A DNA stretch of 64,000 bases from Siphonodentalium dalli (Eukaryota > Mollusca > Scaphopoda > Gadilida > Siphonodentaliidae). Position 1 is the stretch's first letter, and the number at the start of each line of letters is the position of its first letter. Below the pieces are notes generated by a model. That model ran no database searches, was not told the origin of the DNA, and worked only from the letters and a program-made list of their open reading frames with translations. Location of the stretch: NCBI GenBank assembly GCA_032622095.1, contig CP136065.1, positions 155,005,577 through 155,069,576 of the forward strand. The letters are read 5' to 3'. Below, piece by piece: positions 4,109 to 55,780 of the stretch. Both the position numbers and the translations under genes were made by a program.

Positions 4109-4508
4109 TTAACCCTTTGCCCAACAAACCGGCCAAAACCGGCCAAATAAAGCTTCAACAGCCTAAAATATCTTCGGTCTGTCTCAATAAAACCATACAA
4201 ATATGGATATCATTGGAACCGGCTCCTTGACCACATTGTGATAGTTACAGTTATGCCCTGTGCCAATGCATTCTCTTATATATGCGAGTCGACCATAGGT
4301 CGCCTCGCATATATAAGAGAATGCATTGGCCTAAAAAAAATCGTTTTTTAACACCTTTTACCATTTTTTCTTACATTCTTTAACAATTTTATAATTTTTA
4401 ATGTGTTAAGCCAATGCATTCTCTTATATATGCGAGGCGACCTATGGTCGACTCGCATATATAAGAGAATGCATTGGCACAGGGCCGTTCTGTTGGGTAA
4501 AGGGTTAA
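4109..4508. mobile_element. TTAA-bounded MITE with two 69-nt hairpins
   Basis: It begins TTAACCCTTTGCCCAAC and ends GTTGGGTAAAGGGTTAA, so terminal inverted repeats are framed by TTAA, the target of piggyBac-type transposases. Inside sit two near-perfect 69-nt palindromes (4262-4330 and 4410-4478) in opposite orientation. It has no coding capacity. A piggyBac-mobilised MITE is the best reading. Confidence 0.8.
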
Positions 4509-32600: not shown

Positions 32601-35600
32601 TCCCATCTATAAGAATATGCGTGCAACTACTAAATGACCACTACCAGTGTTAAACTACGAAGCAGGTGAAACATTGAACGACGCCAGTCAATGCTTTGCT
32701 TCAGCAGAATGATATTAATATAAACAAACGGAAAAGGAAACTATAAATGTAGAATAATGCGGATTAACTATTTCTGGAAATAGAAATGGAAAAGGGAACA
32801 GGATCAAGTCCTTAAAAGGTCTGTGAAAGTCATGTTCCCCGTTCCGCTCTTGGTACCAGGAATATTCAACCCCGAATAATGTCCATGGATGAAGTTATGG
32901 TAGCAGCCTGGCTATCCCGTTAACGCATATATATATATGCCAGTTTTATGGATTACAATCACAATACAAGAGCTGAGCATTTGATATTTCACTTATACAT
33001 CAGTTCCAAACATTGGCCAGTATGCTCCTTCCTCACAGGGATCATGAAACAAATAAAACTGCAATGCAGAGTTCAGTCCCCTCGCTAAGCTGGTCGGACC
33101 ACTGCCACCACGTACATATACGTAATTAAATCTAGTTTATTTAAAGGTACTCAATCCGATTAAGCACCCCTAAATTACTATTTCTTTGGCTTCGGGGGTA
33201 AAAAATAGTTGATTCGAGTCGAGGAACCCACCCTTCAAAGCTCAGAGTGATCAGATATCGATTTTTGAAATGTGTTATTTTTTGGAGATGTGGGCCACTT
33301 CCACGTCTCAAACGGACAAATTACGGACAAATTGCGGGTGTAAGATGGACAACTCTAAAATCAAGTGGTTATTATTAACCACTTGATTTTAGAGTTTTTA
33401 AGATGGACAACTCTAAAATCAAGTGGTTATTATTAATCGGATTGAGTACCTTTAAGAGTTTTGTCGATTACAATTCATTCTGATTTGATCTAGCCAATTT
33501 CCAAATGAATGTGGACTCTGACAAAAGTCTTAAATAAACAAAAATGAATGCAGTGGTCTGACTAGCGACATAGGGGACTTAACTCTGCCTTGCAGTTTGG
33601 AAACAAATCGAACTCAACTGACAATCTCCTTTTTGTGTCGACTGACTACCCCATGCATTGATTCAAGAAAATATTATATTATTTCCTAAACTCCCGAAAA
33701 TCTGCTATTAGTAGGCCTGCTGTATACACACACTCCCTCCACAAATCTTTGATTAGATTGTTATATATTTTCAGAATTGATTAACATAAGTAAAACACAC
33801 GTGTAAAGTTTGTGCTCAAATAATGCTAGAATATATGATATTTCTAGAATTATTGTAGCTGGTTTAACAGCAAAACGCCGAACACACAGATGGAAGCATA
33901 GGGGCCTACATTGGGCATATAAACTCGTTGATTAGCTATCGAAAAGATTTGTCTTAACCCTTTCTATTATAAATACGCTTTGATGAGTAGTTCCCTTTGG
34001 AAATGTTCAGATGATAAGTTCAACAGCGACCAGGTCGTTTGTCGAACTTATTATCTGAACAGTTCACACCAATGAACATGAATCCTTCTGATAATGTATT
34101 CACTTTTAGTCTCTCTGTCGTCTGTTTTTATTATGTGAACCCGCATCCCTCCAAATGAATAATAAACATGCCAATGTATACTTGTATGACTGAATGGGGT
34201 AAAACATTTAGTATTTAAATGGTTAAGCATTAAGTTCAACAAGAGAACATATATATAGCACGCCACGTGGGGTCACATGAAAGACGAGGGTAACATAGAT
34301 GTTTCAAATGAGAATGAACGTGAACGTTTTGATCAGATCAGATCTGGAAGACAATCTACCGTAGGGTGAGGATACATATTTCAGAAGAAGGAGAAAGCGG
34401 AAAGTGGAATGAAGAAAGTTCTATAGCTATACGCCTTGTAACAGTGTCGCGGCCATATTGGATCCATCCAGCCCAGTTCCGTTTTTTAGTGCTACAGGTC
34501 AAAGTTCCGGAGTAGCATTCAATATATGGAGCTTTTGAATATTCATGAATTCCATATATGTAGCACTAAAAAAACGAAACGGGACTGGATGGATCGAATA
34601 TGGTCGCGACTCAGTGACAAGTCGTATACGTGTGGTGGTATTGATGTATTCACAGTAATCCACACTGACTATATATTCAAGGAAAGGCTTGTGTCTGTTA
34701 GAATCTCGATTCGTTGCTCTGTTTCTGAAAATGAAGTACTGACCAAGAGCTAGTAGTTATCTTTGTGATAGGATGAGAGAGATGCACAATAATTGGGAAA
34801 TATAAATCCTATACACATACATACTCTGTCAAAAAGGGGTCTAGATCTATGGCAGGGACACACCAAGAATGCTTGCATATCGGCTGAATATTATAAGATC
34901 GAAACTATAGTAATAGGCGGAAAATAGCGACCAAAGGAAAAACTGATAGATTCAGAACACGACATTCTTCAAATGTTAGTAAGCTGGTCGCCAATATATG
35001 ACTCCGATGTTTCTTCGAGTTGCAAAAATGAAATAAAGCAGATATCTCCGAACAGAATGTGCGAAGAAAGCGAAGCAACTCGGTCTCCATTCCTGGTCAA
35101 CCATACAAGGAAAAAATGAAAGATCATAATTTATTTATAATTGGCTAAATATTCAGATACAATCTCAATGGCTCGGAATGCGAAAGCGGCGGTAATGGTA
35201 GAGCCATTGAGATTGATTCGGATAATTGATTGATTGATTGTTTATTTAACTCAACCATTACGTGGCGAATACAGAGTACAAATTAACATATTATACATAT
35301 ATTTACAAAAGAGGGGGGGGGGCACTGTTGTCTGGCTTGCCATTTTCATATGGCAGAAGTGTATAGTTGTACTATCATCATCATCATCATAATCACAATC
35401 ATCATTATCATCGTCGTCGTCGTCATCATCATCGAAATCATCATCATCATCATCGTCGTCACCATGATACCATACGCTGTTGAAAATCAACGTCAAATGA
35501 CTGCAGAAATAGCTGTACGCTGGGGGGGGGGAGGGTGTTTCTACATGTGGTTATAATTATTGTGACATCGTAAATATAAGATAACGGCGATAGCCACGTA

Positions 35601-38600
35601 TATTAGACCTAATATCAGTGTCTTATATGGTCATGTAGTAGATATAATAAAGGTACTTAGATATTTTACGAAAACCCATAAATGTTCCAGTCAGGCCGCA
35701 GACTATGCAAATTATAATAGAAACATATAACGCATATGAGTTCGGACTCCGATTGGTCGATTTGAATTGGACATATACTAAACCTCATAGCGTATTTACA
35801 CCTGGTGTATCTAAACTTTGTGCTTCTGTTTCGGCCAATGTCAGGTCGTGTCAGGTACGCTGGGCTATTTGTCAGTGGTACTAATTGAAAATTTCAGTAC
35901 ACAACTCAAGTGTAGCTTCTAAATCACAACGTTATTATGGAAAATTATTAAACAAAATTAGGAAGTGCTATATTCATATTAGATTAAATCCAGATTTAAA
36001 TATGATCATATTTACGACGATAACGACAACAGTGATCATGCATAAAAATATACGCTAATGGCTACCAAGGACATTTAAACATACATGTTGATGAATCTAT
36101 AGATGAGATCCGGTTATGATTTCATTAAATTTAATAACGACTACTTGATGACCAGTTACTTTTAACACATGTGCCATGTACCGAAAACTAGCCGTTCCCC
36201 TCAGTTTTCAATGACCACAGACCGAATGTCGAAAATCTAATGATGTTGAATATTTTTATGTAATTCGATTTGTCACATCCATCATATATACATTTGAATA
36301 CGTTTCCAGTGAATTTCATGTCTACACTGTGGTCTTATTGATAATGTGTGTCTTTATTCTATGTAATTATCTACACTTTTCCATCTGCCCCCTGTATTGG
36401 ACGGAGTGCAAATCACATGTGCAACCAAGAGGAATATCCACGTAAATCTCGTTAATGATACACTCCTGTTTCCATACATGCCAGCACCACAACAAAAATT
36501 TATAAAATCAGATATTACAACATTTTTGACTTTTAACCCAATGGCAAATATATGCCAGTAACGCTGAAGATGTCACTCTCACAAAAAATTGCTGGTCGGT
36601 ACACATGTGCAGAAGGGTACACAGGTTTTGAAATTTCGTTCTAAATGACATTTAGTTTTCGTATGTGCCATGATTTCTGTCAGATAATTTTTTTTTTTAC
36701 ATTCCAATCAAAATATTAAAATGAATTGAAAACAAACTGCTGATGGGGGCCATACTTCCAGGAACACAATTGAAGTAACTGCGTTTTGTTGATCACTACC
36801 CATGTCTTCAGTTACTCTTATCATCTATGAGATGTAGAACATTTTAGTTAGCAATGCCTCTTTCTCACTTGGTGCTTCTAGACTATGAATCAAAACCAGA
36901 ACATATTTCGTTTAAATTAGCTCTGCTAAACATCTCTTATAGAGTTATTTTTCCGAATGGACACCTCAAATTTTGAATCAAGTTTATGTTAAAGAGCGAA
37001 TACCCCCCAAAAATGTCGACATTTTCCAACTGAGAATGAATCATGTTAAGAACGAATTGGATTGTATATAGGAGCATTTTGCAATCCTAACTTCGAAAAT
37101 TATTTCTTGACATACATGTAAGATATTCAAAGTCTAAGTCTCAACGTTCTCATTTAATCATATTCTCTTCTTATCTGTATCTGGATAGAGATCACACATA
37201 ACCATCAACAAACCATCGGAGACAGATGGTGTTGACAAAAATTAACCGATGTATGATGATGACCGACGAGATTGTAACTTAGGATTATGTGAAATAATGT
37301 GGAAAACAAAATTCAATTGGTGCTGATAATGTAGATCTGATTAACACCAACTCACCTACTGGTGGAGGCTTAGGTTCTTCTGATGAACAAGCAAGAACAA
37401 TTAAATCAGTGGGTTAGTTTTAAAGGGACACAAGGCAATCGCAGTGGGTAAATGCGAAAACAGAATATATACATGTGTATACGTCTGTAAAAACCCCACC
37501 ACTAAGAAGAGCATTGAGAAATATATAAACTTTGTTCTTATATTCATTATTAGTTATCCAATAACGAAATATCGCTTGTTGAAGCCATTGTATGTAAATA
37601 AAACTTTACTGTTACGGTGATCTGTCAACAAACATCACTAATCGTGTAATATTAAAGATACTCAATCCGATTAAACACCCCTAAATTACTATTTCTTTGG
37701 CTTCTGGTGTAATAAATATTTGATTCGAGTCGAGGAACCTACCCATCGAAGCTCAGAGTGGTCAGATATCGATTTTTGAAGTTTGTTATTTCAATTGATT
37801 GTGGCCCAGAAATACGTCGTAAAATGGACGGTCTCGGTCAAAATTGCGGATGAAGATGGATAGCTCTAAAAACAAGTGATAATAGGCCATATTTCGTTGA
37901 ATAAAATGATGGTAATTAACACGTTTTTGGGGAAATTTGATACCATAGTTGACAGTGGTTAGCATTATTTTGTTGCAATTAATCGAATCTTTTAACTAAA
38001 GGGTATTTTGAAGAAATGTTGTTGTTGTTGTATCTTGATGATATGGGGACCCTCTGATCGGATTGAGTACCTTTAAGTTCAAATATTCTAGTCTGAATAT
38101 GGATTTTCTGAATAATCTCAAAATTCTTTTCACAATAGGAATTATTTTGAATTATATAGAAATATAAACAGTATTATACACACCTGGTCAAGTGGTCATG
38201 CTAATTTGCTGTGCTGTTGGTGGGTCTTGCTGAATTGTATGTTATGATGATGGTATGGCACACTTATGCTATTAAGAAAAAATACCTTTATTCAGCTGCT
38301 TGATTTTTTCAATTGTTGCGGTCTTTTGCTAATTTGGACGAATCAAAGAAAAGCCATTGGCTGTGAATCCTTCAAGAACCGCGATATGCTTTATATATTT
38401 CAACAATGGATCTGCTGGTGCATGCAAAATGGCAAAATTAGATCTTGATTATTTTCGGTTTGCACCAACACACCCATTGTTAAAATACATGTATGTTATA
38501 ACATATCTAGTTTTGAATGTTTTATACACAAAATGGCTTTTCCTCGATTCGTTCAGATTAGCAAAACACCGCGAAAATGACAACTTTAGATAAAATAACG

Positions 38601-39523
38601 GTACTTTTTCTCAACAGCATTATAGCTTGCCCTATCATCATCATCATCATCATGGCAGTTTATAGCATGACCCACCAACATCATAGTACATTACCAGGAC
38701 CTCTTGACCAGGGGTGATACCATTCCGAGATAGAAGCTGTTTCTATAAATCATAACTAACCTGCTTTTCGAATTGAAATCCCGACAACTCCTTCCATTTC
38801 GGTGTCTTTCATTTTCTTTTTACCACCAATACAGAAATCGCGATCAGCGAGATATGCTAGAGCGATGAGAATTGGGAAGAATAAAAGGGTTAAGATTGCT
38901 TCGACGAAATCTACCTTGTTCGGTGTAATCACAATGAGAACGAGGCCGAGCCACACATAGGCCCCGATGCAGGTGAATGCGGTGACGGCGAACACTTTCA
39001 TGCTTTTGACCCGCCTTACCTCCCCATCTGGGATTACGTACACACAGATGGCGCTGATAACTAGCAAGTTGAAGGCAGCAGAACCCACAATAGTACCAGG
39101 TCCCAATTTTCCGGCTTTGAAGTTATTGCCGACGATTTCAATGACCGAAAGAAGAATCTCTGGCGCACTCGTCCCCAGGGCGAGAAGACTCAGATTAGCA
39201 ACGGTGTCGTTCCAGACTTTAACGTTAACCGCCCGGTAACCTTCCGTTTCATTCTTGTCAGGAATTCGAATTGTGGTGGTTCTGCTCGTAATCATCTCTA
39301 TTGAACACATGAAGACATCGGCGACAATCGCGACTGCCAGGAAAATCCACACTAGCGCGAGGAGGTACAGACCGGCGCGTGTCCCATCTGACCACGTGTA
39401 TTCGCTTATGACCGGCAGGAGCAGTCCTTTGTTAGCACATGTGTAATTATATAGGTCACTGTAGCATGGTGCCAACGTTGTGGTTACGTTCGGTGCTTCG
39501 GTGGTTGTGTTTATAATACTCAT
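10647..39523 (-). CDS. Na+/Ca2+ exchanger, NCX/SLC8 family (complete, 11 coding exons)
   Basis: A plasma-membrane antiporter that normally exports one Ca2+ for three Na+. Joined minus-strand exons: 39523-38761, 37379-37356, 32606-32506, 29629-29462, 28063-27867, 26008-25773, 19096-18864, 17778-17673, 13863-13685, 12800-12471, 10895-10647. They total 2,586 nt (861 codons plus stop), with GT-AG at every junction and matching phases. Residues 50-225 hold five membrane segments and the alpha-1 repeat with GTSAPEI (117-123). Residues 226-669 are the regulatory loop: CBD1 about 370-500, CBD2 about 500-612. Residues 670-861 carry the alpha-2 repeat GTSMPDTFAS (727-736) and the last membrane helices. 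The length is slightly short for the family (about 900-970), mainly because the loop start is divergent and the XIP segment is not recognisable. Family assignment is firm; the paralogue is not determined. Confidence 0.95.
10930..11310. repeat. Dispersed repeat 'cagggacgtggcta'
   Basis: Shares 'agggacgtggcta', 'tttccaac', 'cccttgtaccag', 'gcactcatc' and 'gggttggaa/gttagaa' with 53,341-53,640. A weaker relative is at 19,580-19,700. Class unknown. Confidence 0.7.
11428..11726. repeat. Two-copy tandem repeat, about 150 bp unit
   Basis: The unit (gatgtgatgtgaaacactcc..., then gaattaaatg) occurs at about 11,428-11,572 and 11,573-11,726. The copies are nearly identical and differ in the number of gatgt repeats and one base near 11,517/11,669. 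Confidence 0.95.
12471..12800 (-). CDS. NCX exon 10 (residues 670-779): alpha-2 repeat
   Basis: 330 nt, acceptor aaatttcag, donor AAG/GTCAGT. It encodes ILFAFIPPTQYGGGW, GDLASIFGC, GLKDEITAI, VALGTSMPDTFAS (ion-site Asp D732) and SVGNVNGSNSVNVFLG. These are near-invariant alpha-2 features of NCX proteins, so a working ion pathway is expected. Confidence 0.97.
13442..13649. mobile_element. Foldback MITE with TACAGT ends
   Basis: A 208-bp imperfect palindrome. The ends are TACAGTAATGCC and GGCATTACTGTA, and the arms share 'gatttagtcggaaat' and 'cttgttgcc'. Ends in TA plus CAGT are typical of Tc1/mariner-type MITEs. A second full copy is at 55,565-55,780, and one half survives at 18,788-18,837. 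Confidence 0.85.
13685..13863 (-). CDS. NCX exon 9 (residues 610-669): post-CBD linker
   Basis: 179 nt, acceptor attttccag, donor AAG/GTGAGT. It encodes DYNGLVSRIAGLTKAKLDYL, a SYIEQFKEAMNV block matching vertebrate 'SWREQFIEAITV', and DYIMHFLTFPWK matching 'DYVMHFLTVFWK', which leads into the next membrane helix. Confidence 0.95.
15490..15810. mobile_element. TTAA-bounded MITE carrying half a hairpin
   Basis: Ends TTAACCCTTTCAGTGCCAGG and GGCACTCAAAGGGTTAA; 321 bp including both TTAA. Inside, at 15,727-15,766, is one arm of the 69-nt palindrome, truncated near its centre. Confidence 0.8.
16070..16215 (+). repeat. Probable LINE 3' end
   Basis: A purine/pyrimidine (TATG/CATA) run is followed by 'gacgaaggcaataaaactat' and a short tail repeat ttgaatc/ttgaattt. 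Such short tail repeats mark the 3' end of CR1/L2-like LINEs. No coding part remains. Confidence 0.5.
16622..16885. mobile_element. MITE of the TTAAAGGTACTCAATCCGAT family
   Basis: Starts TTAAAGGTATTCAATCCGAT, ends with 'ggattatgcatctttaa', and carries the family core in reverse orientation ('ccgaagctaaggaaacagta'). Bounded by TTAA. Confidence 0.8.
17156..17625. repeat. Dispersed repeat, copy 2 (partner 7528-8010)
   Basis: Same order of landmarks as copy 1, followed at once by the (AT)n tract. It seems to have inserted in the intron 8 end of NCX. Confidence 0.8.
17673..17778 (-). CDS. NCX exon 8 (residues 575-609): CBD2, last part
   Basis: 106 nt, acceptor aattgcag, donor GAAG/GTATAA. It encodes a Cys-rich strand pair (ERDDCFQIDLEECGGG) and ends CIVTIVNDE, which with the next codon gives VNDED, the closing Ca2+-ligand strand of CBD2. 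Confidence 0.92.
17779..18863 (-). other. NCX intron 7
   Basis: Carries a two-copy 'gcactaatccatggctca' repeat (about 17,920-18,000), a decayed MITE (18,011-18,206), a 21-base poly-G run (18,671-18,691) and half of a TACAGT MITE (18,788-18,837). No gene seen. Confidence 0.75.
18011..18206. mobile_element. MITE of the ACTCAATCCGAT family, decayed copy
   Basis: Begins 'gatactcaatccgag', contains 'gattggtgggttcctcaacc' and 'ccccgaagccgaagaaatag', and ends 'cagattatgcatctgtaa'. Recognisable, but the TTAA ends are eroded. Confidence 0.65.
18864..19096 (-). CDS. NCX exon 7 (residues 497-574): CBD2, first part
   Basis: 233 nt, acceptor ttattgtag, donor AAC/GTAAGT. It encodes EPGKIEFAKPTI, then VKWRTKDITAMHGKDYNGGE, then GELLFDNGETAKTIDIDLFE, the standard second Calx-beta strand order. 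In vertebrates the mutually exclusive A/B exons map to the part that follows; I found only one version here. Confidence 0.93.
19900..20416 (+). repeat. Dispersed repeat ending CTCAGGTGAGCTC, copy 1
   Basis: Segments 'gaccccatttgaacaaatctgaa', 'agtcacccaaggacc', 'caaatatgaacccattc' and 'gaagaagtcgtttttaagaat' lead to a gacggacag run and 'cttcgtctcaggtgagctc'. The same order occurs at about 25,075-25,440. From memory, this repeat type is very common in mollusc genomes. Confidence 0.75.
20560..20960 (+). repeat. Dispersed 'gaacaaatctgaa' repeat, copy 2 (truncated)
   Basis: Repeats the 'gaacagatctaaacatg..acccaaggaccctgcata' and 'gttatggccctggcatc' blocks, followed by a gatggatggacag run. It lacks the CTCAGGTGAGCT end. 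Confidence 0.7.
22165..22400. repeat. Inverted repeat and short tandem repeat
   Basis: A tandem 'agtgagatataagtgatatc' pair (22,172-22,218), then an inverted repeat whose arms are atatccacactttttcagtg (22,290-22,317) and its mirror at 22,371-22,398. This looks like the end of a non-autonomous DNA transposon; family not recognised. Confidence 0.7.
24320..25003 (+). mobile_element. pogo/Tigger-like DNA transposon relic
   Basis: TIRs TACAGTTAAACTTCGTTAA and TTAACGAAGTTTAACTGTA start and end in TA. Internal 'taagtcgaa' blocks repeat near both ends. A broken coding remnant (about 24,755-24,960) includes a LDAMTLMQQSWA-like segment that resembles the C-terminal part of Tigger transposases. Too short (684 bp) to be autonomous. 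Confidence 0.7.
25075..25442 (+). repeat. Dispersed repeat ending CTCAGGTGAGCT, copy 3
   Basis: Same block order as at 19,900-20,416, with a pure (GACG)n run at about 25,365-25,390 and the end 'cttcgtctcaggtgagcta'. Confidence 0.8.
25773..26008 (-). CDS. NCX exon 6 (residues 418-496): rest of CBD1
   Basis: 236 nt, acceptor ttcattacag, donor GACG/GTGAGT. It completes the first Calx-beta fold: TINGTAMAGEDY, then IEIIDDYEYEPDEFFFVKL, then VTIINDDG. The acidic ligand positions D-D-x-x-E-x-D-E are kept. The last cluster reads NDD where vertebrate NCX1 has DDD, so Ca2+ sensing is probably retained with one altered ligand. Confidence 0.93.
26009..27866 (-). other. NCX intron 5
   Basis: Mostly taken up by the TTAA-bounded element at 26,886-27,729. 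A (CA/TA)n tract follows the exon 5 donor (about 27,835-27,862). The rest is featureless. Confidence 0.75.
26886..27729. mobile_element. TTAA-bounded transposon, TTAAAGGCCCAC ends, 844 bp
   Basis: About 130-bp terminal inverted repeats: the left arm (aggcccacttaattttcgag...) is mirrored at 27,590-27,729. Both ends coincide with TTAA. A third copy of the end sequence lies inside at 27,241-27,262, suggesting a nested or rearranged element. It has no reading frame, so it is non-autonomous and probably mobilised by a piggyBac-type enzyme (inference). Confidence 0.8.
27867..28063 (-). CDS. NCX exon 5 (residues 353-417): start of CBD1
   Basis: 197 nt, acceptor cttttcag, donor AA/GTATGT, ends in phase 2. 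It has the CLE motif, whose Glu matches Ca2+ ligand E385 of mammalian NCX1, followed by VRVGLRRYG. The N-terminal part (HIGVPEDERTGRIVQLGKF) differs from the vertebrate CBD1 start. Confidence 0.9.
28064..29461 (-). other. NCX intron 4: nothing recognised
   Basis: AT-rich intron. No repeat, RNA or exon identified apart from short ATAT runs. Confidence 0.6.
29462..29629 (-). CDS. NCX exon 4 (residues 297-352): catenin-like helical segment
   Basis: 168 nt, in phase 0 at both ends, acceptor gaattcag, donor GAC/GTTAGT. It encodes an amphipathic helix (ELGREEGLSEEEAANIAAAR) and the WYRINASRFFAGRKRLKP block. That block aligns with the 'AFYRIQATRLMTG' block of vertebrate NCX1, which precedes CBD1. 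Confidence 0.9.
29630..32505 (-). other. NCX intron 3
   Basis: Contains a large foldback at 30,971-32,378. The stretch 29,650-30,820 has only short (TA)n/(CA)n tracts, for example at 29,893-29,917. Confidence 0.7.
30971..32378. mobile_element. Foldback element, about 1.4 kb long inverted repeat
   Basis: Left arm blocks reappear in reverse order and orientation on the right: cgaccgaaaaatca (30,992) with tgatttttcggttg (32,351); the 'ctgaactggacatgattgac' block with 32,303-32,325; ccaatttgacatcggat with atccgatgtcaaattgg; the 'aagcatcgaacttcat' region with 31,998-32,025; and ataaccgcgtaacgatt (31,498) with 31,771-31,787. The axis is near 31,650. A direct repeat (gataaacatgctg.ctggtgtg) lies at 30,825-30,846 and about 32,381-32,402, outside the arms. 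Class unknown; no protein evident. Confidence 0.75.
32506..32606 (-). CDS. NCX exon 3 (residues 263-296): loop linker
   Basis: 101 nt, acceptor ttatag, donor AAG/GTAAGA. It encodes an acidic, Ala/Gln-rich linker starting DGNYSDEERAAAIDTMPG and ending MQLAK. This corresponds to the stretch before the helical segment of vertebrate NCX loops. Confidence 0.88.
33141..33455. mobile_element. MITE of the TTAAAGGTACTCAATCCGAT family
   Basis: Ends TTAAAGGTACTCAATCCGAT and ATCGGATTGAGTACCTTTAA are near-perfect inverted repeats bounded by TTAA. It contains an extra inner hairpin built from 'ctctaaaatcaagtggttat' and its mirror (about 33,352-33,430). Confidence 0.9.
34448..34613. repeat. Hairpin repeat 'gcggccatattggatccatc'
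   Basis: The left arm (gcggccatattggatccatc, agcccagttccgt) is mirrored at 34,578-34,613, with an inner palindrome around 34,527-34,562 (tatatggagctt / aattccatatatg). Related sequence at 25,445-25,525 and 19,290-19,375 shows that it is dispersed. Confidence 0.75.
35221..35310 (-). repeat. LINE/SINE 3' tail, (AATC)n type
   Basis: On the minus strand, AT-rich sequence with 'gttgagttaaataaacaatc' ends in repeated AATC. This is the usual 3' end of several LINE families. Only the tail is present. Confidence 0.55.
35370..35470. repeat. Trinucleotide microsatellite (TCA/TCG)n
   Basis: An interrupted run of TCA and TCG triplets. It reads as poly-Asp on the minus strand and poly-Ile/Val on the plus strand; these frames are repeat artefacts. 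Confidence 0.95.
37356..37379 (-). CDS. NCX microexon, 24 nt (residues 255-262)
   Basis: Flanked by ttcatcag and GTGAGT. It encodes, with the split codons, EEPKPPPV and keeps phase 1 at both ends, so it can be included or skipped without a frame change. The Pro-rich insert falls at the start of the cytoplasmic loop. An alternative cassette exon is likely but unproven. Confidence 0.8.
   Translation of the reverse strand, partial: KNLSLHQ
37380..38760 (-). other. NCX intron 1
   Basis: Contains the MITE at 37,652-38,076 and a short (ATC)n run at 38,636-38,653. Nothing else identified. Confidence 0.7.
37652..38076. mobile_element. MITE of the TTAAAGGTACTCAATCCGAT family, longest copy
   Basis: TTAAAGATACTCAATCCGAT at one end and ATCGGATTGAGTACCTTTAA (one base different) at the other; 425 bp, bounded by TTAA. 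Non-coding. Confidence 0.9.
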
Positions 39524-39533
39524 CTTGACTTAT
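38761..39533 (-). CDS. NCX exon 1 (residues 1-254): TM1-TM5, alpha-1 repeat
   Basis: The coding start ATG is at 39523. An acceptor (tttgcag) at 39534-39535 leaves 10 nt of 5' UTR in this exon, so at least one upstream non-coding exon exists; I could not locate it. The extracellular N-terminus is Thr-rich with NTT, NVT and NYT glycosylation sites and several Cys. Membrane segments lie at about 50-73, 107-132, 146-164, 177-200 and 205-225. The ion-site Glu is E122 within GTSAPEI. GSAAFN at 147-152 and VYVIPDGE at 161-168 are family landmarks. It ends at donor CAG/GTTAGT in phase 1. Confidence 0.95.
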
Positions 39534-40935: not shown

Positions 40936-42913
40936 AGGTGACCAATGTGTTCACCCTTACACACATCTAAGCTCGGATGGGCGTCTGCATGCATGGTCGC
41001 CATTCGATGAATGAAACAACCTACACACCGTCTGAAATTCTATTGATCTGAACATTCTTGTATACACCAGTATAAGGATCAAATTTAAGGTACATGCACG
41101 CGGTCGATACCATGACATTCGGTGAAACATTACATTGTTTTGAACACAAAATGGTGACAAGACATTGATTTCATTTACGTTTTGAAAATTTCCCCATATA
41201 TAACCTATTGAAATGAGTCGGGCCATGTTCCCATGTCTTTGAGCAAGAAGGCTTTTGAGAAATCCGTGTATTCAATGGAACACACATAGATAAATTTAAT
41301 GTACAAATTATGTATAGTCTAAAAGCATTTCAATGGACCAAACTTCCGCCTTTGATCTTGTGTCTACACGTTACTTATTCGAATAAGCGGTCACGTCCAA
41401 AGTGTCAACTCAACAGGATTTTCAATTGATTTGTCCCATTACTGTCACGCCTTCGCCAAAATTATACATACATACATTGAATCTGTATACATGTTTATAC
41501 TATTATAGAACATATTATCTGTCACTGTTCACCGAATGGTTACAGGCTATCGAGACACATTTTCGTTGCTAAATTTGAAATATATATGCACAATACAATA
41601 GTAACAAAGTGCATGGACCAATCTTAATCCATGTCATTGCGCTACATGCGTCGACAGGAATGACCACGAACATTCCCATTCCTCTGCATGGGTGTGTCAT
41701 CGTGCTATCGGAATGAATGGTTGACGTTAAATTTTATTCGATTTTTATTTTTATTTTATGACTTTATGTTAGTTTGTCGCTTCTTTGTTGTTGAGCATGG
41801 GGTATTCTCTTGCTTGTTACACTAATTGATCAGCTTACAATCAACAGTCATCACGAAATTGGCGGATATTTGTGACTATATGTACAGGCCACATAGCCCG
41901 CTACAATCAAGACCTGTTATTGTCAATATGAAATAAATTTCTATTCAATTAGATTAATATCTAAATTATCGTACAAAATCAATCTATTACTGACCTTTCG
42001 GTCAATGTTGTCAACTTGGTTTGCACGTGTTATATAGTAATTGGCAAGGCATAGTATATATATTCAATAAACGTATTTTTTTTGCATTTCTGCTCTATCT
42101 GTATCTGTAGATGTTGCAGTGCTGATATACTTATACAATTGCCGAACAACATACAGTATAAATTTTCGAAGTGAAATTATACCAAGTATATGTTGTTCGG
42201 CCACTTACAATTTTATAAGCCCATAAATGCAACACAACATACTTTGATTGCTTATAATTACGCTCCGGAACATTAATTCCAACCTATTATAGAAAGAATT
42301 ATCTCAAATCTGTCTGATGTAAAAAAAAATATCAAAATTTCCGTTAGTGCGAACGATTGAACGAAGTTTTATTAACCGATTTTGCAAACTAACACAATGC
42401 GCGATAAACGAAGTTGAAGGCCGATTCAAATAAAATGAAACTGACGCGGAGGAACAACTAACAGTCGTGACTTGTGTCATTAAAAATCACTTTTCGAATT
42501 GGAAAATATAAATTAGATACTTTATGAATTTGACGTGAATCCGCCTAATGCATTGCCATTACTGGTTTACTGGGTTTATTGAGATTCCGCCGGTGATTTT
42601 ACAACGCACCCCGTCAATCGGGGTAAATATACAAGTGGAATGACTGAGTCAATTAATTATACATCAAGATAAAATACAGTTCATAGCACTTGGAATTTTC
42701 CCCACTGGTGCAAATGACGCAAAAGAATCATACGAAGTTCCGAAAAAATTACTTTTTAGTTCTTGGTATAATACTAGAATTTGAAATGCAACACATGGAC
42801 TGACTGGCCACAAGCACTGGGGTGCTGATGCTTTCCAGTGAAGCCAGTCACACTGTAGAACGAACGCATTGAGTTACACCAGTTTGTACATGTAAGTATG
42901 TACATACCATAAC

Positions 42914-44412
42914 AGTAGTACAGGAGGCTTGTTGACCCCACATCTAAAAATAGATTTTTTGGCGGTAAAATTGTTTGTACTAAAATATTCCAAACAAATT
43001 TTTTTTTCAAAACCTAATTTTTTTTCCCAAATTAAATATATTTTTTTTTTTTTAAATCTCAAAAATTTATAACGAGTTTTCGGTCTCTTACCCAAATATC
43101 GGCCGACTATTAAATGTCGAATGTTTTTAAATTATTTGCGTGTAATATCTTTTGTTATTGGCCAACTATTTTTGTTCAAACAAATTTTAAATATTTTTCA
43201 TGAAACTCTGTTAATTTTATTAATCGATGTTTAGAAATAGATTTATACCAATTATATGTGTATGGACTGGTCCGAGTCGCTGTAATTTTGGTCATTGTCA
43301 CCATCGGTATGAATGCATACATTTCAGTGTTTATCATCAGACGCAGTCTCGTCTATTACATCATATAATTGTCTCCACAATACCTGAAATAATTTGACGC
43401 CATTACTCTTACATAAATAATACAGAGCGTTTATTCTTTACTTCTCTATCCCGATGAAGTTATTGAGTATATGACAAGTGTGCATCATCGCGAATTATTG
43501 GAAGAATTATTGAAATGTTGTACTATTTTGAAAGCAGTCACGATCGGACGAAGAGCGTGATGCGTAATTACAACCCGAATGAACTGACATATTCTATGGA
43601 ACAAATTTTCAATTATGTACACACACACATAATCACACGCGTCAATGAGGGTAACACTGTATAGGTCGAAAGAGTGACACCTTGGATAAATTTACCAAAT
43701 GACTGTTATTATATCTGTTGACAGCTAATTGTGGTCCGACTCGTTTGATGTTAGCTCTCGATAGCGTGTCTGAACATCATTACCTGTTTAACGGGTTATG
43801 CTCACGTAAGTTTGATAAGCTGTGTCATTGTTAGCATTAACGCGATAATTAGTTATCAAAAAATATGCATACATAGTACGTACATGTGATAAGACACTCA
43901 ATAATAGAAGTTGCCTTTGTGTTGTTGTTATAACAACATTACGTAATAACCACTTATAGACCTATTCATACTTACGCTCATATATAATCTTATATAATGT
44001 TACCTCATCTGTGCTAACTATGTTAGGTAGTTATGGTATACAAATATCTATGACGAAGCTTCCTGTTATGCATGTACAGACACGCTTTCAATTAAGCTAT
44101 CGATAGCGTGTGCATTCTTATTACATCATTAGTTGTTTAACGGGATATGATCACGTAAGGTGATAAGCTGTGTCATTGTTAGCATTAACGCGATAATTAG
44201 TTATAAAAAATATGCATACATAATACGTACATGTGATAAGACACGCAATAATAGAAGTTACTTTGGTGTTGTTGTTATAGTCAAGAGAAACAAGGGCTAT
44301 TGAGAAGTATGGTCTTGTACATAAATAATAAAGCGCGTTATCGAATATATGTTACACCATATCTCCCCTCCCCACTTATAGATATATAACGAAAACGAGA
44401 ATAATATGTTGA
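42914..44412. repeat. Element left terminal repeat, non-coding part
   Basis: About 1.5 kb between the left end and gene A. It matches 48,435-49,329 inverted, except for about 620 bp (43,425-44,045) present only here. Inside, 43,760-43,945 and 44,095-44,280 are direct repeats of each other (tgtttaacggg..., agctgtgtcattgttagcat...). Poly-A/T runs near 43,000-43,050 differ between arms. Confidence 0.85.
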
Positions 44413-44428
44413 TGAAATTTATTGAAAT

Positions 44429-44980
44429 TTAATCATTGTCAGAATCTTCGACCGTTAGATTTATTTCTAACAGTTTCTTGAATTTTCTCATCACTTCATC
44501 TGCAGCCCATTCATTATCATATCCGTGTTTGGTCAGTTTGAGCATTTTCTTCATGATCATGTTATGTAGGGGTGATGTTTTCAATCGATACTGGTATTCT
44601 ATTAATCGTCTATAACTTTTGAGAAAGAGAGCAAACTCTGTGTCGATGGTAGCCTCTTCTCCCGACATGCTCTCTTCTCCTTTCGCATCATTGGTGACGC
44701 GTTTCATCATACTTTTGAATGTGTCCATCTCGTTGACACATCGCGCAGCTTTCTTACGACCGAATACCGTTCTACTACCGGCGACAGTATTATCTTCTGA
44801 ATCTGACGAAGCGGTTCTAGATTCAGATTCAGATGAACGGGGAACGATATCAGATTCTAGGTCATCGGTATCGTCTCCGAAGAAATTTGTCTCGGACATA
44901 ACTACGTGTTTAAGCTGTTTATGTCTTTGTAGATTGTAGTTCGTCGATAAAATAATTCCGCATAAATGACACCCGTGCAT
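44429..44980 (-). CDS. Element gene A, left: acidic protein with N-terminal C2H2 finger
   Basis: 183 residues. A zinc finger sits at the very N-terminus: C4-x2-C7-x12-H20-x4-H25. Next comes an acidic Ser/Asp/Glu-rich stretch (about 29-65), a basic patch (GRKKAARC, about 74-81) and a mostly helical C-terminal half (about 85-175) rich in Lys, Met and Leu, ending in acidic VEDSDND. An AATAAA signal follows almost directly after the stop. The right-arm copy (47,953-48,423) lacks the finger but otherwise differs at one residue. I do not recognise the family; a DNA-binding regulator is a guess from the finger only. Confidence 0.75.
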   Translation of the reverse strand: MHGCHLCGIILSTNYNLQRHKQLKHVVMSETNFFGDDTDDLESDIVPRSSESESRTASSDSEDNTVAGSRTVFGRKKAARCVNEMDTFKSMMKRVTNDAKGEESMSGEEATIDTEFALFLKSYRRLIEYQYRLKTSPLHNMIMKKMLKLTKHGYDNEWAADEVMRKFKKLLEINLTVEDSDND

Positions 44981-45168
44981 TATCGCGAATTATTGGAAGA
45001 ACGATCACTCTTATAAGTAGCGATAAAAAGAGAGAATAAGGTGTGGTATACAACCCTCACGTTAAGAGTGCGTTCGTCCCGGGTCTAGGGTATAGATCTT
45101 TGACCGCCGGTGATTCAATTAATGCCAATTTATCAGTATGGTACTCTATGTATTCATTCATGATTTGG

Positions 45169-45492
45169 CTAATCGTATGACACTTTTCTTTTCATTTTCT
45201 TCTTATTATTAGACAAACCTCCAGCTAACACTCTCTTGTTGGTTTGTTTGGACGCTTTACGTGTGTTTGTCAACTTATTTGCTGCAACTTCGGCCTTAGC
45301 CATTTCAATCGCTTGAGCGATGGGCGTCACTACGTTAATATGTGGTTTTAGAACGTCTTCTTCACTATCACTATTTTTAGTTCTGTCAATAAAGTATCGA
45401 CCCTTATTATCTGGCGTTAACTTCCCATCAAGCATGTCTCTGAAATGTTTTCTCCACGTTTCAATATCTGTTGGAATATACGGGATCGACAT
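45169..45492 (-). CDS. Element gene B: short Lys-rich protein (left arm only)
   Basis: 107 residues. The N-terminus has a W-x-x-HF-x-x-M-x-x-G pattern (ETWRKHFRDMLDGKL, residues 12-26), the middle a VVTPIAQAIEMAKAEV helix, and the tail is very basic (KKKMKRK). From memory, short proteins with a 'W..HF..M..GK' start, a 'VTPVQQ..EQAK' helix and a Lys/Arg-rich tail occur among Polinton/adintovirus-like genes of cnidarians and fishes. If right, this supports the element's class, but I cannot verify it. The matching place in the right arm is deleted. Function unknown; a nucleic-acid-binding structural protein is a guess. Confidence 0.65.
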   Translation of the reverse strand: MSIPYIPTDIETWRKHFRDMLDGKLTPDNKGRYFIDRTKNSDSEEDVLKPHINVVTPIAQAIEMAKAEVAANKLTNTRKASKQTNKRVLAGGLSNNKKKMKRKVSYD

Positions 45493-45673
45493 GTTTCTTC
45501 AAATGTAGTGTACAAGTCACTCTTTTTTCTGCATTTTATTTTAGAAAGTTTATCGCCTCTTATAAAAATCGATTATCTGGATATTTATTAATCGAATCGT
45601 CGCTAGTCAGGTACAGATAATAATTATCCATATGACTATAGTTTCTAAAAAAAAAACAATTCAAAGAGAATCA

Positions 45674-46144
45674 TTATTCTTCTTCTCTTATAGTTTTATT
45701 GATATCACTGAATATATGCTTGAAGATTAACCACTGGTTCAAATTTAACGGAATACCTATAATCGTCGGAGTGTTATTCACAACTCGCCTAATGTCTGTA
45801 TAAATGTGTCCTTGATCGTTACATAATGTAACAGTAATGTTTGATCGTATTGTCCACTTTTTCACGAAAACACACGGGTGTTGTTCGTAATCATTGGGGT
45901 GTGACATATTAGTATGAAGTAATTCATAGTCAACTGACTCACGCGGTATCTTCTTTGGAACTAAAATAAATGGTAGTGACACAGTGATTACCATAATAGT
46001 AATTCCTATCCATTTAAGGAGATTCATATGTAGACGACCACGTTCTGTTTGAAACGTATGTGTCAAGGTACCTGTTCTATTATCCATGATTGTAATTGTT
46101 CTCGTGTACAACTTACTCTTATTAATTTTGATATCTGGCGACAT
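45674..46144 (-). CDS. Element gene C, left: membrane-anchored protein with PC4-like C-terminus
   Basis: 156 residues. One clear membrane helix (about 44-63, IGITIMVITVSLPFILV) follows a basic N-terminus. The part after it has N-glycosylation motifs NMS, NIT, NNT and NKT. The last about 60 residues read like the PC4/p15 ssDNA-binding domain: ITVTLCNDQGHIYTDIRR, then GIPLNLNQWLIFKHIFSDI. These parallel 'VLIDIREY' and 'GISLNPEQWSQLKEQISDI' of human PC4. PC4 proteins are nuclear, so joining to a membrane helix is odd. A later start (Met20 or Met40) would not remove the helix. The right-arm copy (47,550-47,942) is cut within the PC4-like part. Confidence 0.75.
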   Translation of the reverse strand: MSPDIKINKSKLYTRTITIMDNRTGTLTHTFQTERGRLHMNLLKWIGITIMVITVSLPFILVPKKIPRESVDYELLHTNMSHPNDYEQHPCVFVKKWTIRSNITVTLCNDQGHIYTDIRRVVNNTPTIIGIPLNLNQWLIFKHIFSDINKTIREEE

Positions 46145-46295
46145 CAGACTCTAAAATCCATGAATTAAATTTGTCTGGCCATGAATGCCAAATGCACCAT
46201 GATAGTTATCGATGTCAATAATGCGTTTCGTTGAGATCTTGATTGAGTATGCACCAATCAATTAACAATGACACAGAATATCACCCAAAGTATAT

Positions 46296-46540
46296 TCAAA
46301 GGGGGTGAGAAAAAGAGCAAATGAGCAAAAAAAATGAGCAAATGAGCAAAAAAATGAGCAAATGAGCAAAAAAATGAGCAAAAAAATGAGCAAATGAGCA
46401 AAAAAATGAGCAAATGAGCAAAAAAAATGAGCAAATGAGCAAAAAATGAGCAAATGAGTGTTGTTGTTGTTGTTGTTGTTGTTGTGGCTGATGATACTGT
46501 TGTTGTTGTTGTTGCTGATGATACTGTTGTTGTTGTTCTG
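46296..46540. repeat. Microsatellites in gene D, left
   Basis: (tgagcaaa)n with A-run interruptions at about 46,312-46,457, then (ttg)n at 46,459-46,540. The mirror lies at 47,161-47,390. Confidence 0.95.
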
Positions 46541-46625
46541 AAGGCTTGTGTTTAACTTTGATATGACGTTTCAAACTATCTTGCCAAGCATAGACACTTG
46601 AGCACTCTTCACATTGATACTTCAT
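46296..46625 (-). CDS. Element gene D, left: C2H2 finger and polyQ protein
   Basis: 109 residues. Residues 5-26 form one C2H2 finger (C-x2-C-x12-H-x4-H). A Gln/His-rich tract (about 30-57) comes next, then a tail of repeated FAHFLLICSFF. That tail is encoded by a microsatellite of the unit tttttttgctcatttgctca. The finger and start are identical in both arms; the polyQ and tail vary in unit number and frame. The tail may be a by-product of repeat growth rather than a selected domain. The finger spacing equals that of gene A, so the two may be related. Confidence 0.7.
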   Translation of the reverse strand: MKYQCEECSSVYAWQDSLKRHIKVKHKPSEQQQQYHQQQQQQQYHQPQQQQQQQQHSFAHFLLICSFFLLICSFFCSFAHFFAHFFAHLLIFLLICSFFLLICSFSHPL

Positions 46626-46879
46626 TTTCCTATATAATCAGTGAAATCGAGCGTTCTTCTATGCACCTATATTTATATAGAACAGAAACAAGGGCAACGT
46701 GGTGGACTAGTTAACTAGTTCAGGCTGTCGTTCACAACGTCTCTTCGTGTTGTTTGTACTGGATACAAATTTATCACATTGGCTACAATACAACCTACCT
46801 ATCCAAATGTCAATGCAATTATGAGTGATTTCAATATGAGCACTCTATTATATAGATATGTGTAACCTGGTGACATGAT

Positions 46880-47035
46880 GAAATCGATTGTGATACAAAG
46901 CTAAAGTACCGACCATAGGGTAGATACAAAGCTAAAGTACCGCTCATAGAGCAGAAGCTAAAATACTATAGCGGTACTTTAAATATGTATCTACCCTATG
47001 GTCGGTACTTTAGCTTTGTATCACAATCGATTTCA
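46880..47035. repeat. Centre of the palindrome
   Basis: Arms meet here: gatacaaagctaaagtacc appears twice on the left (about 46,893 and 46,923) and mirrored twice on the right. The innermost stem is aaagtaccgct / agcggtacttt, with about 20 unpaired bases (46,947-46,966). Such a small loop is what a snap-back copy event would leave. Confidence 0.85.
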
Positions 47036-47074
47036 TCATGTCACCAGGTTACACATATAGGATTATATAGGAAA

Positions 47075-47398
47075 ATGAAGTATCAATGTGAAGAGTGCTC
47101 AAGTGTCTATGCTTGGCAAGATAGTTTGAAACGTCATATCAAAGTTAAACACAAGCCTTCAGAACAACAACAACAACAACAACAGTATCATCAGCAACAA
47201 CAACACCAACAACAGTATCATCAGCCACAACAACAACAACAACACTCATTTGCTCATTTTTTTGCTCATTTGCTAATTTTTTTTGCTAATTTGCTCATTT
47301 TTTTTGCTCATTTGCTCATTTTTTTTGGCTCATTTGCTCATTTTTTTGCTCATTTGCTCATTTTTTTTGCTCATTTGCTCTTTTTCTCACCCCTTTGA
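47075..47398 (+). CDS. Element gene D, right: C2H2 finger and polyQ protein
   Basis: Mirror copy of the gene at 46,296-46,625. I place the start at ATG 47,075 because it matches the left copy; the frame is open upstream to 46,985, but that part is palindrome-centre sequence. The finger residues are unchanged. The Gln tract is longer and contains extra His, and the hydrophobic tail has a different unit number and ends FFSPL. About 0.2 kb of upstream sequence found on the left is missing here. Confidence 0.65.
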   Translation: MKYQCEECSSVYAWQDSLKRHIKVKHKPSEQQQQQQQYHQQQQHQQQYHQPQQQQQHSFAHFFAHLLIFFANLLIFFAHLLIFFGSFAHFFAHLLIFFAHLLFFSPL

Positions 47399-47549
47399 AT
47401 ATACTTTGGGTGATATTCTGTGTCATTGTTAATTGATTGGTGCATACTCAATCAAGATCTCAACGAAACGCATTATTGACATCGATAACTATCATGGTGC
47501 ATTTGGCATTCATGGCCAGACAAATTTAATTCATGGATTTTAGAGTCTG

Positions 47550-47942
47550 ATGTCGCCAGATATCAAAATTAATAAGAGTAAGTTGTACACGAGAACAATT
47601 ACAATCATGGATAATAGAACAGGTACCTTGACGAATACGTTTCAAACAGAACGTGGTCGTCTACATATGAATCTCCTTAAATGGATAGGAATTACTATTA
47701 TGGTAATCACTGTGTCACTACCATTTATTTTAGTTCCAAAGAAGATACCGCGTGAGTCGGTTGACTATGAATTACTTCATACTAATATGTCACACCCCAA
47801 TGATTATGAACAACACCCGTGTGTTTTCGTGAAAAAGTGGACAATACGATCAAACATTACTGTTACATTATGTAATAATCAAGGACACATTTATACAGAC
47901 ATTAGGCGAGTTGTGAATAACACTCCGACGATTATAGCTTAA
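47550..47942 (+). pseudogene. Element gene C, right: truncated in the PC4-like domain
   Basis: 130 residues. Up to residue 129 it matches the left copy with two changes (His/Asn near residue 29, Asp/Asn near residue 111). After NNTPTII the frame reads Ala then stop, because 842 bp are deleted. The membrane helix remains, but the G-I-x-L-N-x-x-Q-W half of the PC4-like fold is gone, so any DNA-binding role would be lost. Confidence 0.75.
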
Positions 47943-47952
47943 ACACGTAGTT

Positions 47953-48423
47953 ATGTCCGAGACAAATTTCTTCGGAGACGATACCGATGACCTAGAATCT
48001 GATATCGTTCCCCGTTCATCTGAATCTGAATCTAGAACCGCTTCGTCAGATTCAGAAGATAATACTGTCGCCGGTAGTAGAGTGGTATTCGGTCGTAAGA
48101 AAGCTGCGCGATGTGTCAACGAGATGGACACATTCAAAAGTATGATGAAACGCGTCACCAATGATGCGAAAGGAGAAGAGAGCATGTCGGGAGAAGAGGC
48201 TACCATCGACACAGAGTTTGCTCTCTTTCTCAAAAGTTATAGACGATTAATAGAATACCAGTATCGATTGAAAACATCACCCCTACATAACATGATCATG
48301 AAGAAAATGCTCAAACTGACCAAACACGGATATGATAATGAATGGGCTGCAGATGAAGTGATGAGAAAATTCAAGAAACTGTTAGAAATAAATCTAACAG
48401 TCGAAGATTCTGACAATGATTAA
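47953..48423 (+). CDS. Element gene A, right: acidic protein without the zinc finger
   Basis: 156 residues, starting at the Met that is residue 28 of the left copy. The deletion removed the finger codons. The remaining protein differs at one position (Val for Thr in GSRxVFGRKK). AATAAA lies at 48,429-48,434, six bases after the stop. The frame is fully open, so it may still be made as a finger-less form. Confidence 0.7.
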   Translation: MSETNFFGDDTDDLESDIVPRSSESESRTASSDSEDNTVAGSRVVFGRKKAARCVNEMDTFKSMMKRVTNDAKGEESMSGEEATIDTEFALFLKSYRRLIEYQYRLKTSPLHNMIMKKMLKLTKHGYDNEWAADEVMRKFKKLLEINLTVEDSDND

Positions 48424-48434
48424 ATTTCAATAAA

Positions 48435-49329
48435 CTTCATCAACATATTATTCTCGTTTTCGTTATATATCTATAAGTGGGGAGGGGAGATATGGTGTAA
48501 CATATATTCGATAACGCGCTTTATTATTTATGTACAAGACCATACTTCTCAATAGCCCTTGTTTCTCTTGACTATAACAACAACACCAAAGTAACTTCTA
48601 TTATTGCGTGTCTTATCACATGTACGTATTATGTATGCATATTTTTTATAACTAATTATCGCGTTAATGCTAACAATGACACAGCTTATCACCTTACGTG
48701 ATCATATCCCGTTAAACAACTAATGATGTAATAAGAATGCACACGCTATCGATAGCTTAATTGAAAGCGTGTCTGTACATGCATAAAAGGAAGCTTGGTC
48801 ATAGATATTTATTATTTATTATTTATTATTTATGTAAGATTAATGGCGTCAAATTATTTCAGGTATTGTGGAGACAATTATATGATGTAATAGACGAGAC
48901 TGCGTCTGATGATAAACACTGAAATGTATGCATTCATACCGATGGTGACAATGACCAAAATTACAGCGACTCGGACCAGTCCATACACATATAATTGGTA
49001 TAAATCTATTTCTAAACATCGATTAATAAAATTAACAGAGTTTCATGAAAAATATTTAAAATTTGTTTGAACAAAAATAGTTGGCCAATAACAAAAGATA
49101 TTACACGCAAATAATTTAAAAACATTCGACATTTAATAGTCGGCCGATATTTGGGTAAGAGACCGAAAACTCGTTATAAATTTTTGAGATTAAAAAAAAA
49201 AAATAAAAATTTAATTTTGGAAAAAAAAATTAGGGTTTGAATTTTTTTTTTGGAATATTTTAGTACAAACAATTTTACCGCCAAAAAATCTATTTTTAGA
49301 TGTGGGGTCAACAAGCCTCCTGTACTACT
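48435..49329. repeat. Element right terminal repeat, non-coding part
   Basis: Mirror of the left terminal part but shorter. Where the left has about 620 extra bases, the right has a (ttatttat)n run at 48,805-48,835. Homopolymer runs near 49,190-49,250 also differ. It ends CCTGTACTACT at 49,329. Confidence 0.85.
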
Positions 49330-49335
49330 AATAAC

Positions 49336-55564: not shown

Positions 55565-55780
55565 TACAGTAATGCCCTAATTAATCGACTCTCTAACCAC
55601 AGCAGAATTATGGGTAACTTTTCAGGATTTAGTCGGAAATATGGCTTGTTGCCATTCATCGGAAGCTCTCGGTGAGAGCTTTCCGATGAATGGCAACAAG
55701 CCATATTTCCGACTAAATCCTGAAAAGTTACCCATAATTCTTCTGTGGTTAGAGAGTTGATTAATTAGTGCATTACTGTA
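55565..55780. mobile_element. Foldback MITE with TACAGT ends, copy 2
   Basis: A 216-bp palindrome from TACAGTAATGCCCTAA to its mirror, same family as 13,442-13,649. The arms are nearly perfect here, with a short centre (agctctcggtgagagct), so it is a younger copy. Confidence 0.9.

Follow-up and report, generated by a model that had tools for sequence, protein, structure and literature searches.

Replication of Polintons (Mavericks) is believed to proceed on linear DNA with protein priming. To our knowledge, no free Polinton molecule has been observed. Protein-primed linear replicons give rise to snap-back or palindromic derivatives, as in adenovirus variants and the yeast pGKL plasmids. Here, we describe a palindromic element at positions 42914-49329 of a 64,000-nucleotide stretch of Siphonodentalium dalli DNA (the window; C5:155005577-155069576 in a 2.23-Gb, 9-contig genome assembly). 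It resembles the adenovirus and pGKL derivatives in that one end of a linear genome is mirrored and the termini are equal, and it may share their dependence on a helper. Those derivatives are by-products of growth in culture, whereas insertion of this palindrome has recurred many times, each at a different target site. We read the element, with a probability of about 0.72, as a chromosomal copy of a palindromic, non-autonomous Polinton satellite that was born by snap-back and mobilized in trans.

The commonest end motif of vertebrate Mavericks is (AGT)2//(ACT)2, and intact copies carry 6-bp target-site duplications (TSDs) (PMC8097293). The window element is alike in both respects and in having extra accessory open reading frames (ORFs). 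Its termini read AGTAGT...ACTACT, i.e., (AGT)2//(ACT)2, the short tandem end motif of Polintons. It is flanked by CATAAC (42908-42913) and AATAAC (49330-49335), which agree in 5 of 6 letters. Agreement in at least 5 of 6 letters has a frequency of 0.0067 at random pairs of sites in the window. All six relatives tested have TSDs that agree in 6 of 6 letters, and the letters differ from locus to locus (TTTATT in L043, CTCACC in L009, CATCCG in L010, GCTGCC in L011, AATACA in C8, and AACAAT in C9). The terminal region (42914-44279, plus strand) is of Polinton type, and arm positions 1-1198 align at 90% with the right end of C8, a longer relative that bears core genes. The 200-bp terminus was scored at 40 places, the best 40 of 1,117 candidates in the genome. 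The ends, the TSDs, and the termini shared with C8 place the element in the Polinton/Maverick superfamily.

The palindromic elements are 6.4-8.2 kb long, compared with 12.7-24.6 kb for intact vertebrate Mavericks (PMC8097293). The inverted repeat makes up nearly the whole element, compared with 46-1,447 bp for Maverick terminal inverted repeats (TIRs). Unlike Mavericks, the window element has no PolB, ATPase, or whole integrase and retains only about 22 integrase codons, so it does not qualify as an autonomous Polinton. Whole capsid genes were not found in it, and only remnants of a minor capsid protein (mCP)-like ORF and a capsid-position ORF are present.

The closest functional parallel that we have seen is the snapback genomes of one end of adeno-associated virus (AAV), proposed to be regulatory satellites (PMC8235507). 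As described there, AAV differs in being a parvovirus with hairpin-primed replication, and its snapbacks occur in particles and not as chromosomal families. Some adintoviruses, a group of meldviruses, reportedly encode zinc-finger regulators (PMC11071296). Zinc-finger genes are a likeness to these viruses, but the palindromic element has no PolB or hexon, and we do not claim membership. Palindromic miniature inverted-repeat transposable elements (MITEs) and foldback elements are also non-autonomous, with long inverted repeats and little or no unique middle. Unlike these, the element has Polinton termini and core-gene remnants, and one relative (L043) has intact small genes in both arms. Among the papers that our searches of open-licence PubMed Central listed, none describes palindromic Polintons in its title or at the start of its abstract, in line with an earlier reading of the sequence alone (the sequence-only reading), which knew of no such class.

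The element contains 6,416 bp, and the window has no N. The fuller left arm (42914-46957, plus strand) is about 4.04 kb long, and the right arm (46958-49329, minus strand) is about 2.37 kb long. The arms align at 99% in four blocks (875, 548, 405, and 85 nt). These 1,913 aligned nt contain 19 mismatches, 5 of them in a single A/T run. Three large deletions of about 606, 842, and 216 nt distinguish the right arm from the left. The left arm contains four outward ORFs of at least 100 aa and no inward ones; four were reached in none of 1,000 dinucleotide shuffles. It also contains a duplication of about 180 bp (43753-43932 versus 44095-44279, 89% alike), one copy of which is absent from the right arm. 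Since this duplication is far more diverged than the arms (99%), it probably predates the palindrome. The sequence-only reading had described two near-identical head-to-head arms at exactly these coordinates, small genes that read outward only, identical Polinton-like termini, and three right-arm deletions at odds with a plain assembly mirror, and all of these stand.

Each arm appears to be a cut-down, internally deleted virion module. From the axis outward, the left arm encodes, all on the minus strand, gene A (46296-46625, 109 aa), the last ~22 codons of a Polinton integrase (46125-46190), whole gene B (45674-46144, 156 aa), the start and end of an mCP-like ORF with its interior deleted (45493-45631), whole gene C (45169-45492, 107 aa), the first ~20 codons of a capsid-position ORF (45102-45161), and gene D (44429-44980, 183 aa), followed by the terminal region. 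The integrase tail is 95% identical to residues 348-369 of the integrase of C9, a 17.2-kb palindromic relative, and gene C is 80% identical to its C9 counterpart. The two capsid-related remnants were recognized by comparison with C9, where gene B is followed by the mCP-like ORF, gene C, and the capsid-position ORF. Gene B follows the integrase in both C8 and C9. The names of the two C9 ORFs are our assumption, made from their position; neither has profile support, and Pfam and PDB returned nothing usable for the capsid-position ORF. The order of remnants fits the Maverick order of integrase, minor capsid, PW, and capsid (PMC8097293).

The right arm encodes, on the plus strand, gene A (47075-47398), the integrase tail (47504-47569), gene B (47550-47942), which is cut within its PC4-like part, and gene D (47953-48423), which has lost its zinc finger. 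Gene C has been lost from this arm. An integrase tail of 21-26 residues is present in all eight gene-D-family loci tested (the window, L010, L042-L044, and L053-L055), and no PolB or ATPase matches were found in those eight. L009, L011, and L016, which do not have gene D, had no match to any of the queries. The element had been called hallmark-less, which the integrase codons contradict. It had also been proposed to copy one Polinton end; a Polinton terminus is indeed present on both sides, but the internal deletions make the arm a cut-down virion module, so it cannot be a plain genome end.

C8 is 19.8 kb long, and its inverted ends align over 773 columns at 95%. Its termini are 89-90% alike to the window arm. 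It encodes an integrase (rve, PF00665, 1.3e-13), an ATPase-like ORF with weak P-loop matches below the cutoff, and PolB in two broken frames (PF03175, 4.6e-23 and 1.5e-12). It also carries gene B; genes A, C, and D were not seen within the 13.5 kb fetched. The expectation of a full-length element with the same ends, PolB, integrase, and small genes was therefore borne out for all but these three genes. In the C9 palindrome, the outer arms are 98.6-99.3% alike over about 4.2 kb from the ends, and the inner arms are 95.8% alike around an 848-nt spacer, in a view that leaves out about 4.6 kb of the element. Since its arms bear ATPase-like, integrase, and gene B ORFs, C9 mirrors another part of a Polinton. 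PolB is plentiful in the genome, with 69 scored places (the best 69 of 1,596 candidates). Its frames are about 952 and 1,312 aa long, and nearly all of the 69 places are stop-free, which makes for a very large Polinton load.

The palindrome is one member of a multicopy family of non-autonomous Polinton derivatives. We took the census of gene D from the best 150 of 3,409 candidates; these are the best-scoring rows, so intact copies are favored. The gene-D protein match is free of inner stops in 120 of the 150. Neighboring copies within 10 kb form 50 pairs, of which 44 are in '-+', 1 in '+-', and 5 in same-strand orientation, and 88 of the 150 places sit in '-+' pairs. Random placement of the copies yields 0.115 neighboring pairs in all (the size of contig C7 was entered approximately in this control). 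All six of the divergent pairs fetched are inverted arms of 98.3-99.3% identity that reach beyond gene D; the shortest cover 675 nt per side, and the longest take in the entire stretch fetched. Within the two truncated lists (the best 150 of 3,409 gene-D candidates and the best 69 of 1,596 PolB candidates), no gene-D copy has a PolB within 25 kb.

Palindromic copies were found at L010, L031, L033, L042, L043, L047-L052, and C9, and the prediction that there would be more of them thus held. A one-off event is ruled out by the copies of the axis and of gene D across the genome. L043 is the symmetric form. It contains 8,171 bp, its arms are 98.2% alike, and it is symmetric through the axis. Its ORFs are D, C, and B in the left arm and, in the right arm, A, an early-closed B, C, and D. 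L042 resembles L043, and its right end lies just past the fetched stretch. L022, L024, L051, and L052 pivot on other axes and keep their symmetry throughout the lengths that were fetched.

An assembly artefact, or collapsed haplotypes set head to head, is scarcely credible as an explanation. The three large arm deletions, the exact ends with a near-perfect TSD, and the same build in relatives elsewhere all argue against it, as does the divergent orientation of 44 of the 50 neighboring gene-D pairs across contigs. The palindrome in the assembled sequence is real.

The central hairpin of the window element spans 46856-47058, with the axis near 46957. Next to the center, the arms pair over 89 nt (97%) and leave a gap of 25 nt. 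This central stretch folds at -101 kcal/mol, compared with a shuffle mean of -16 (z -27; 0 of 200 shuffles). The relatives have a 6-7-bp stem at the axis, CCGCTC...GAGCGG, whose halves are separated by 3-5 nt (e.g., CCGCTC-ATA-GAGCGG). The window center contains 203 nt, compared with about 230 nt in relatives, so about 27 nt of the axis are gone. The original axis was thus a short hairpin, and the apparent loop in the window is a scar. Of the loop of about 20 nt noted from the sequence alone, the short gap stands but its reading as a loop does not.

The central-hairpin query had 82 matches, with scores for the best 40 of 396 candidates. Nearly end-to-end matches to the central hairpin on both strands occur at five places in addition to the window. 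An AAAT difference between the arms that flank the axis is common to L030-L037, L010, and L038 (by eye; partly altered in L034). The shared axis and AAAT marker point to a single founding palindrome behind these loci. The deletions next to the axis, as we read them, differ: L010, L032, and L034 have lost sequence from one arm and L030, L035, L036, and L037 from the other. L036 has an additional loss on the first arm near the axis. L031 and L033 are symmetric across the 630 nt fetched. Since both the TSDs and the deletions differ among copies, the palindrome must have been mobilized as a unit, with each copy decaying separately afterward. At L042, L043, and L010, equal termini are present on both sides and the arms join at a short hairpin, as expected from snap-back.

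Family similarity stops at or near the axis in L044 (near 4908), L053 (near 2643), and L040 (near 3001). The DNA beyond the axis in these loci is unrelated and perhaps belongs to the host. Either the second arm was lost or broken half-molecules were integrated. In L022, L023, and L025-L029, half of the axis is present, and next to it comes either directly oriented gene-D sequence or unrecognized DNA. They are perhaps nested or second-round palindromes.

Head-to-head recombination of two neighboring or nested Polinton insertions could mimic one palindrome with no special replication. Complex or nested relatives would fit this explanation, such as L054, which has two further termini near each other, and the rearranged L022-L029. 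It is nevertheless very unlikely, as a single 6-bp TSD brackets each complete element tested. The axis and AAAT arm marker common to independent insertions had already weakened it.

Snap-back is the simplest account of the palindrome, and it fits an axis at a hairpin, ends that are identical, and palindromes that recur with other axes. A Polinton genome would first have been stripped of its replication genes and of most of the virion module. As such a linear molecule replicated by protein priming, the nascent strand would halt at the hairpin CCGCTC-ATA-GAGCGG, fold back, prime itself, and copy itself to the end. The resulting duplex would have the same end on both sides and therefore the same origin and integrase site twice. 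Full Polintons could then provide PolB, terminal protein, and integrase in trans, and the palindrome would be copied and inserted repeatedly, each time with a fresh 6-bp TSD. Inserted copies would subsequently lose symmetry by deletions, mostly in one arm.

A chromosomal origin is an unlikely but serious alternative to snap-back. At the axis hairpin, template switching or fold-back repair could have turned a broken, internally deleted Polinton into a head-to-head duplicate. With two functional ends, the product would then have been mobilized by a Polinton integrase, as other non-autonomous transposons are. The axis hairpin suits fold-back repair equally well, copies that end at or near the axis exist (L044, L053, and L040), and other small palindromic repeats are frequent in the window. 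For any single founder, chromosomal fold-back followed by ordinary mobilization fits nearly as well as snap-back. However, Polinton palindromes recur with other axes and contents (C9, L022, L024, L051, and L052), which is simpler if replication makes them. Exact Polinton termini are also present at both ends in all four of the elements of up to 8.2 kb (palindromic or with long inverted repeats) whose two ends were tested, and in C9.

Several observations weigh against the snap-back satellite. Hairpin-primed inversion could also occur in chromosomal DNA, and neither an extrachromosomal molecule nor a terminal protein nor any helper activity was observed. Of the three unpaired gene-D copies fetched, L054 has a short second arm, L053 is one-armed, and L055 has no second arm in the 9 kb fetched; L044 is also one-armed. 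Several of L022-L029 are rearranged in ways that one snap-back does not explain. L009 (4.04 kb) and L011 (4.75 kb) have inverted ends of 1.36-1.38 kb and unmatched middles, and they may be ordinary long-TIR deletion derivatives. The TSD of the window element itself has one mismatch. The ratio of nonsynonymous to synonymous substitution rates (dN/dS) for gene D between the window and L047 is 1.80. Near-identical copies show no purifying selection on gene D: the pooled ratios of nonsynonymous to synonymous polymorphism are 2.94 for gene D and 1.55 for gene C. The corresponding value for gene B is 0.49.

If the snap-back satellite is real, palindromic derivatives can become widespread mobile elements and need not be dead-end by-products. 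The family may be a fossil trace of how Polinton DNA is copied. Recurrent palindromes with exact Polinton termini and a hairpin pivot are the expected residue of linear, protein-primed replication, which makes the idea testable in a single genome that holds many datable copies. Tentatively, and with more doubt than confidence, these elements could form a lineage of palindromic Polinton satellite viruses. They would have heritable snap-back genomes with two origins per molecule and would parasitize the PolB, integrase, and possibly capsids of a helper. Their own small regulatory and DNA-handling genes (two zinc-finger proteins, a membrane PC4-like protein, and a basic protein) would be carried as doubled outward cassettes, and genes A-D might confer some benefit.

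Gene A encodes a C2H2 finger (PF13909, 4.3e-07), a Gln-rich part, and then TTTGCTCAT repeats. By eye, all three frames of these repeats (46306-46458 and 47245-47385) stay open and are hydrophobic, and indels between the arms therefore do not close the gene A frame. Gene D encodes an N-terminal C2H2-like finger (PF00096, E 0.0046, below the cutoff) and is acidic and serine-rich. Gene C has a basic C terminus and contains LAGG-L, which resembles an adenovirus-protease site; the C9 counterpart has LPSG-L there.

Gene B encodes one membrane segment (by eye) and a possibly PC4-like C terminus. The only Pfam match of the C-terminal 66 aa is a weak one to PF02229 (PC4; E 0.058, 13.4 bits of 25). In PDB at E <= 10, the two weak matches are to a Drosophila CG1507 chain (0.67), which we take to be Pur-alpha, and to PC4 (1.5). 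These matches are suggestive of PC4 but are not proof. For the complete gene B product, as for its homologues in C8 and C9, a weak DUF4971 match is listed and PC4 is not, which counts against the PC4 reading. The single-sequence AlphaFold model of gene B had a predicted local distance difference test score of 36 and was unusable.

The dN/dS of gene B versus C9 is 0.43, and that of gene D is 0.60 versus the diverged L024 and 0.56 versus L051. Constraint is weak over these longer spans, and little is visible among recent copies. Homologues of genes B, D, and C outside the host were not found at E 1 among 5.8 billion proteins. A search of genes A-D and the terminus against IMG/VR returned no locus; one stretch encoding a gene-D relative was reported without a locus. 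Matches in PHROGs and NCBIfam were weak and were not used, and Rfam had no match at the gathering threshold.

Small palindromic repeats are frequent across the window. Further near-complete MITE-like palindromes are present at 4255-4485, 13442-13649, 13982-14144, 31074-32191, 34428-34628, 38179-38716, and 55565-55780. Those at 13442-13649 and 55565-55780 are copies of one palindromic family and are about 85% alike. A direct repeat of 98.6% identity joins 1-947 and 1527-2470. The adjoining ORFs look like reverse transcriptase by eye, with no such match in the Pfam search. The minus strand of the window encodes a Na/Ca-exchanger-like gene (PF01699, 1.2e-17; NCX1 in PDB, 8.3e-63), which marks the host as an animal. 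By eye, its apparent first coding exon is at 38756-39529, and the palindromic element lies upstream of it.

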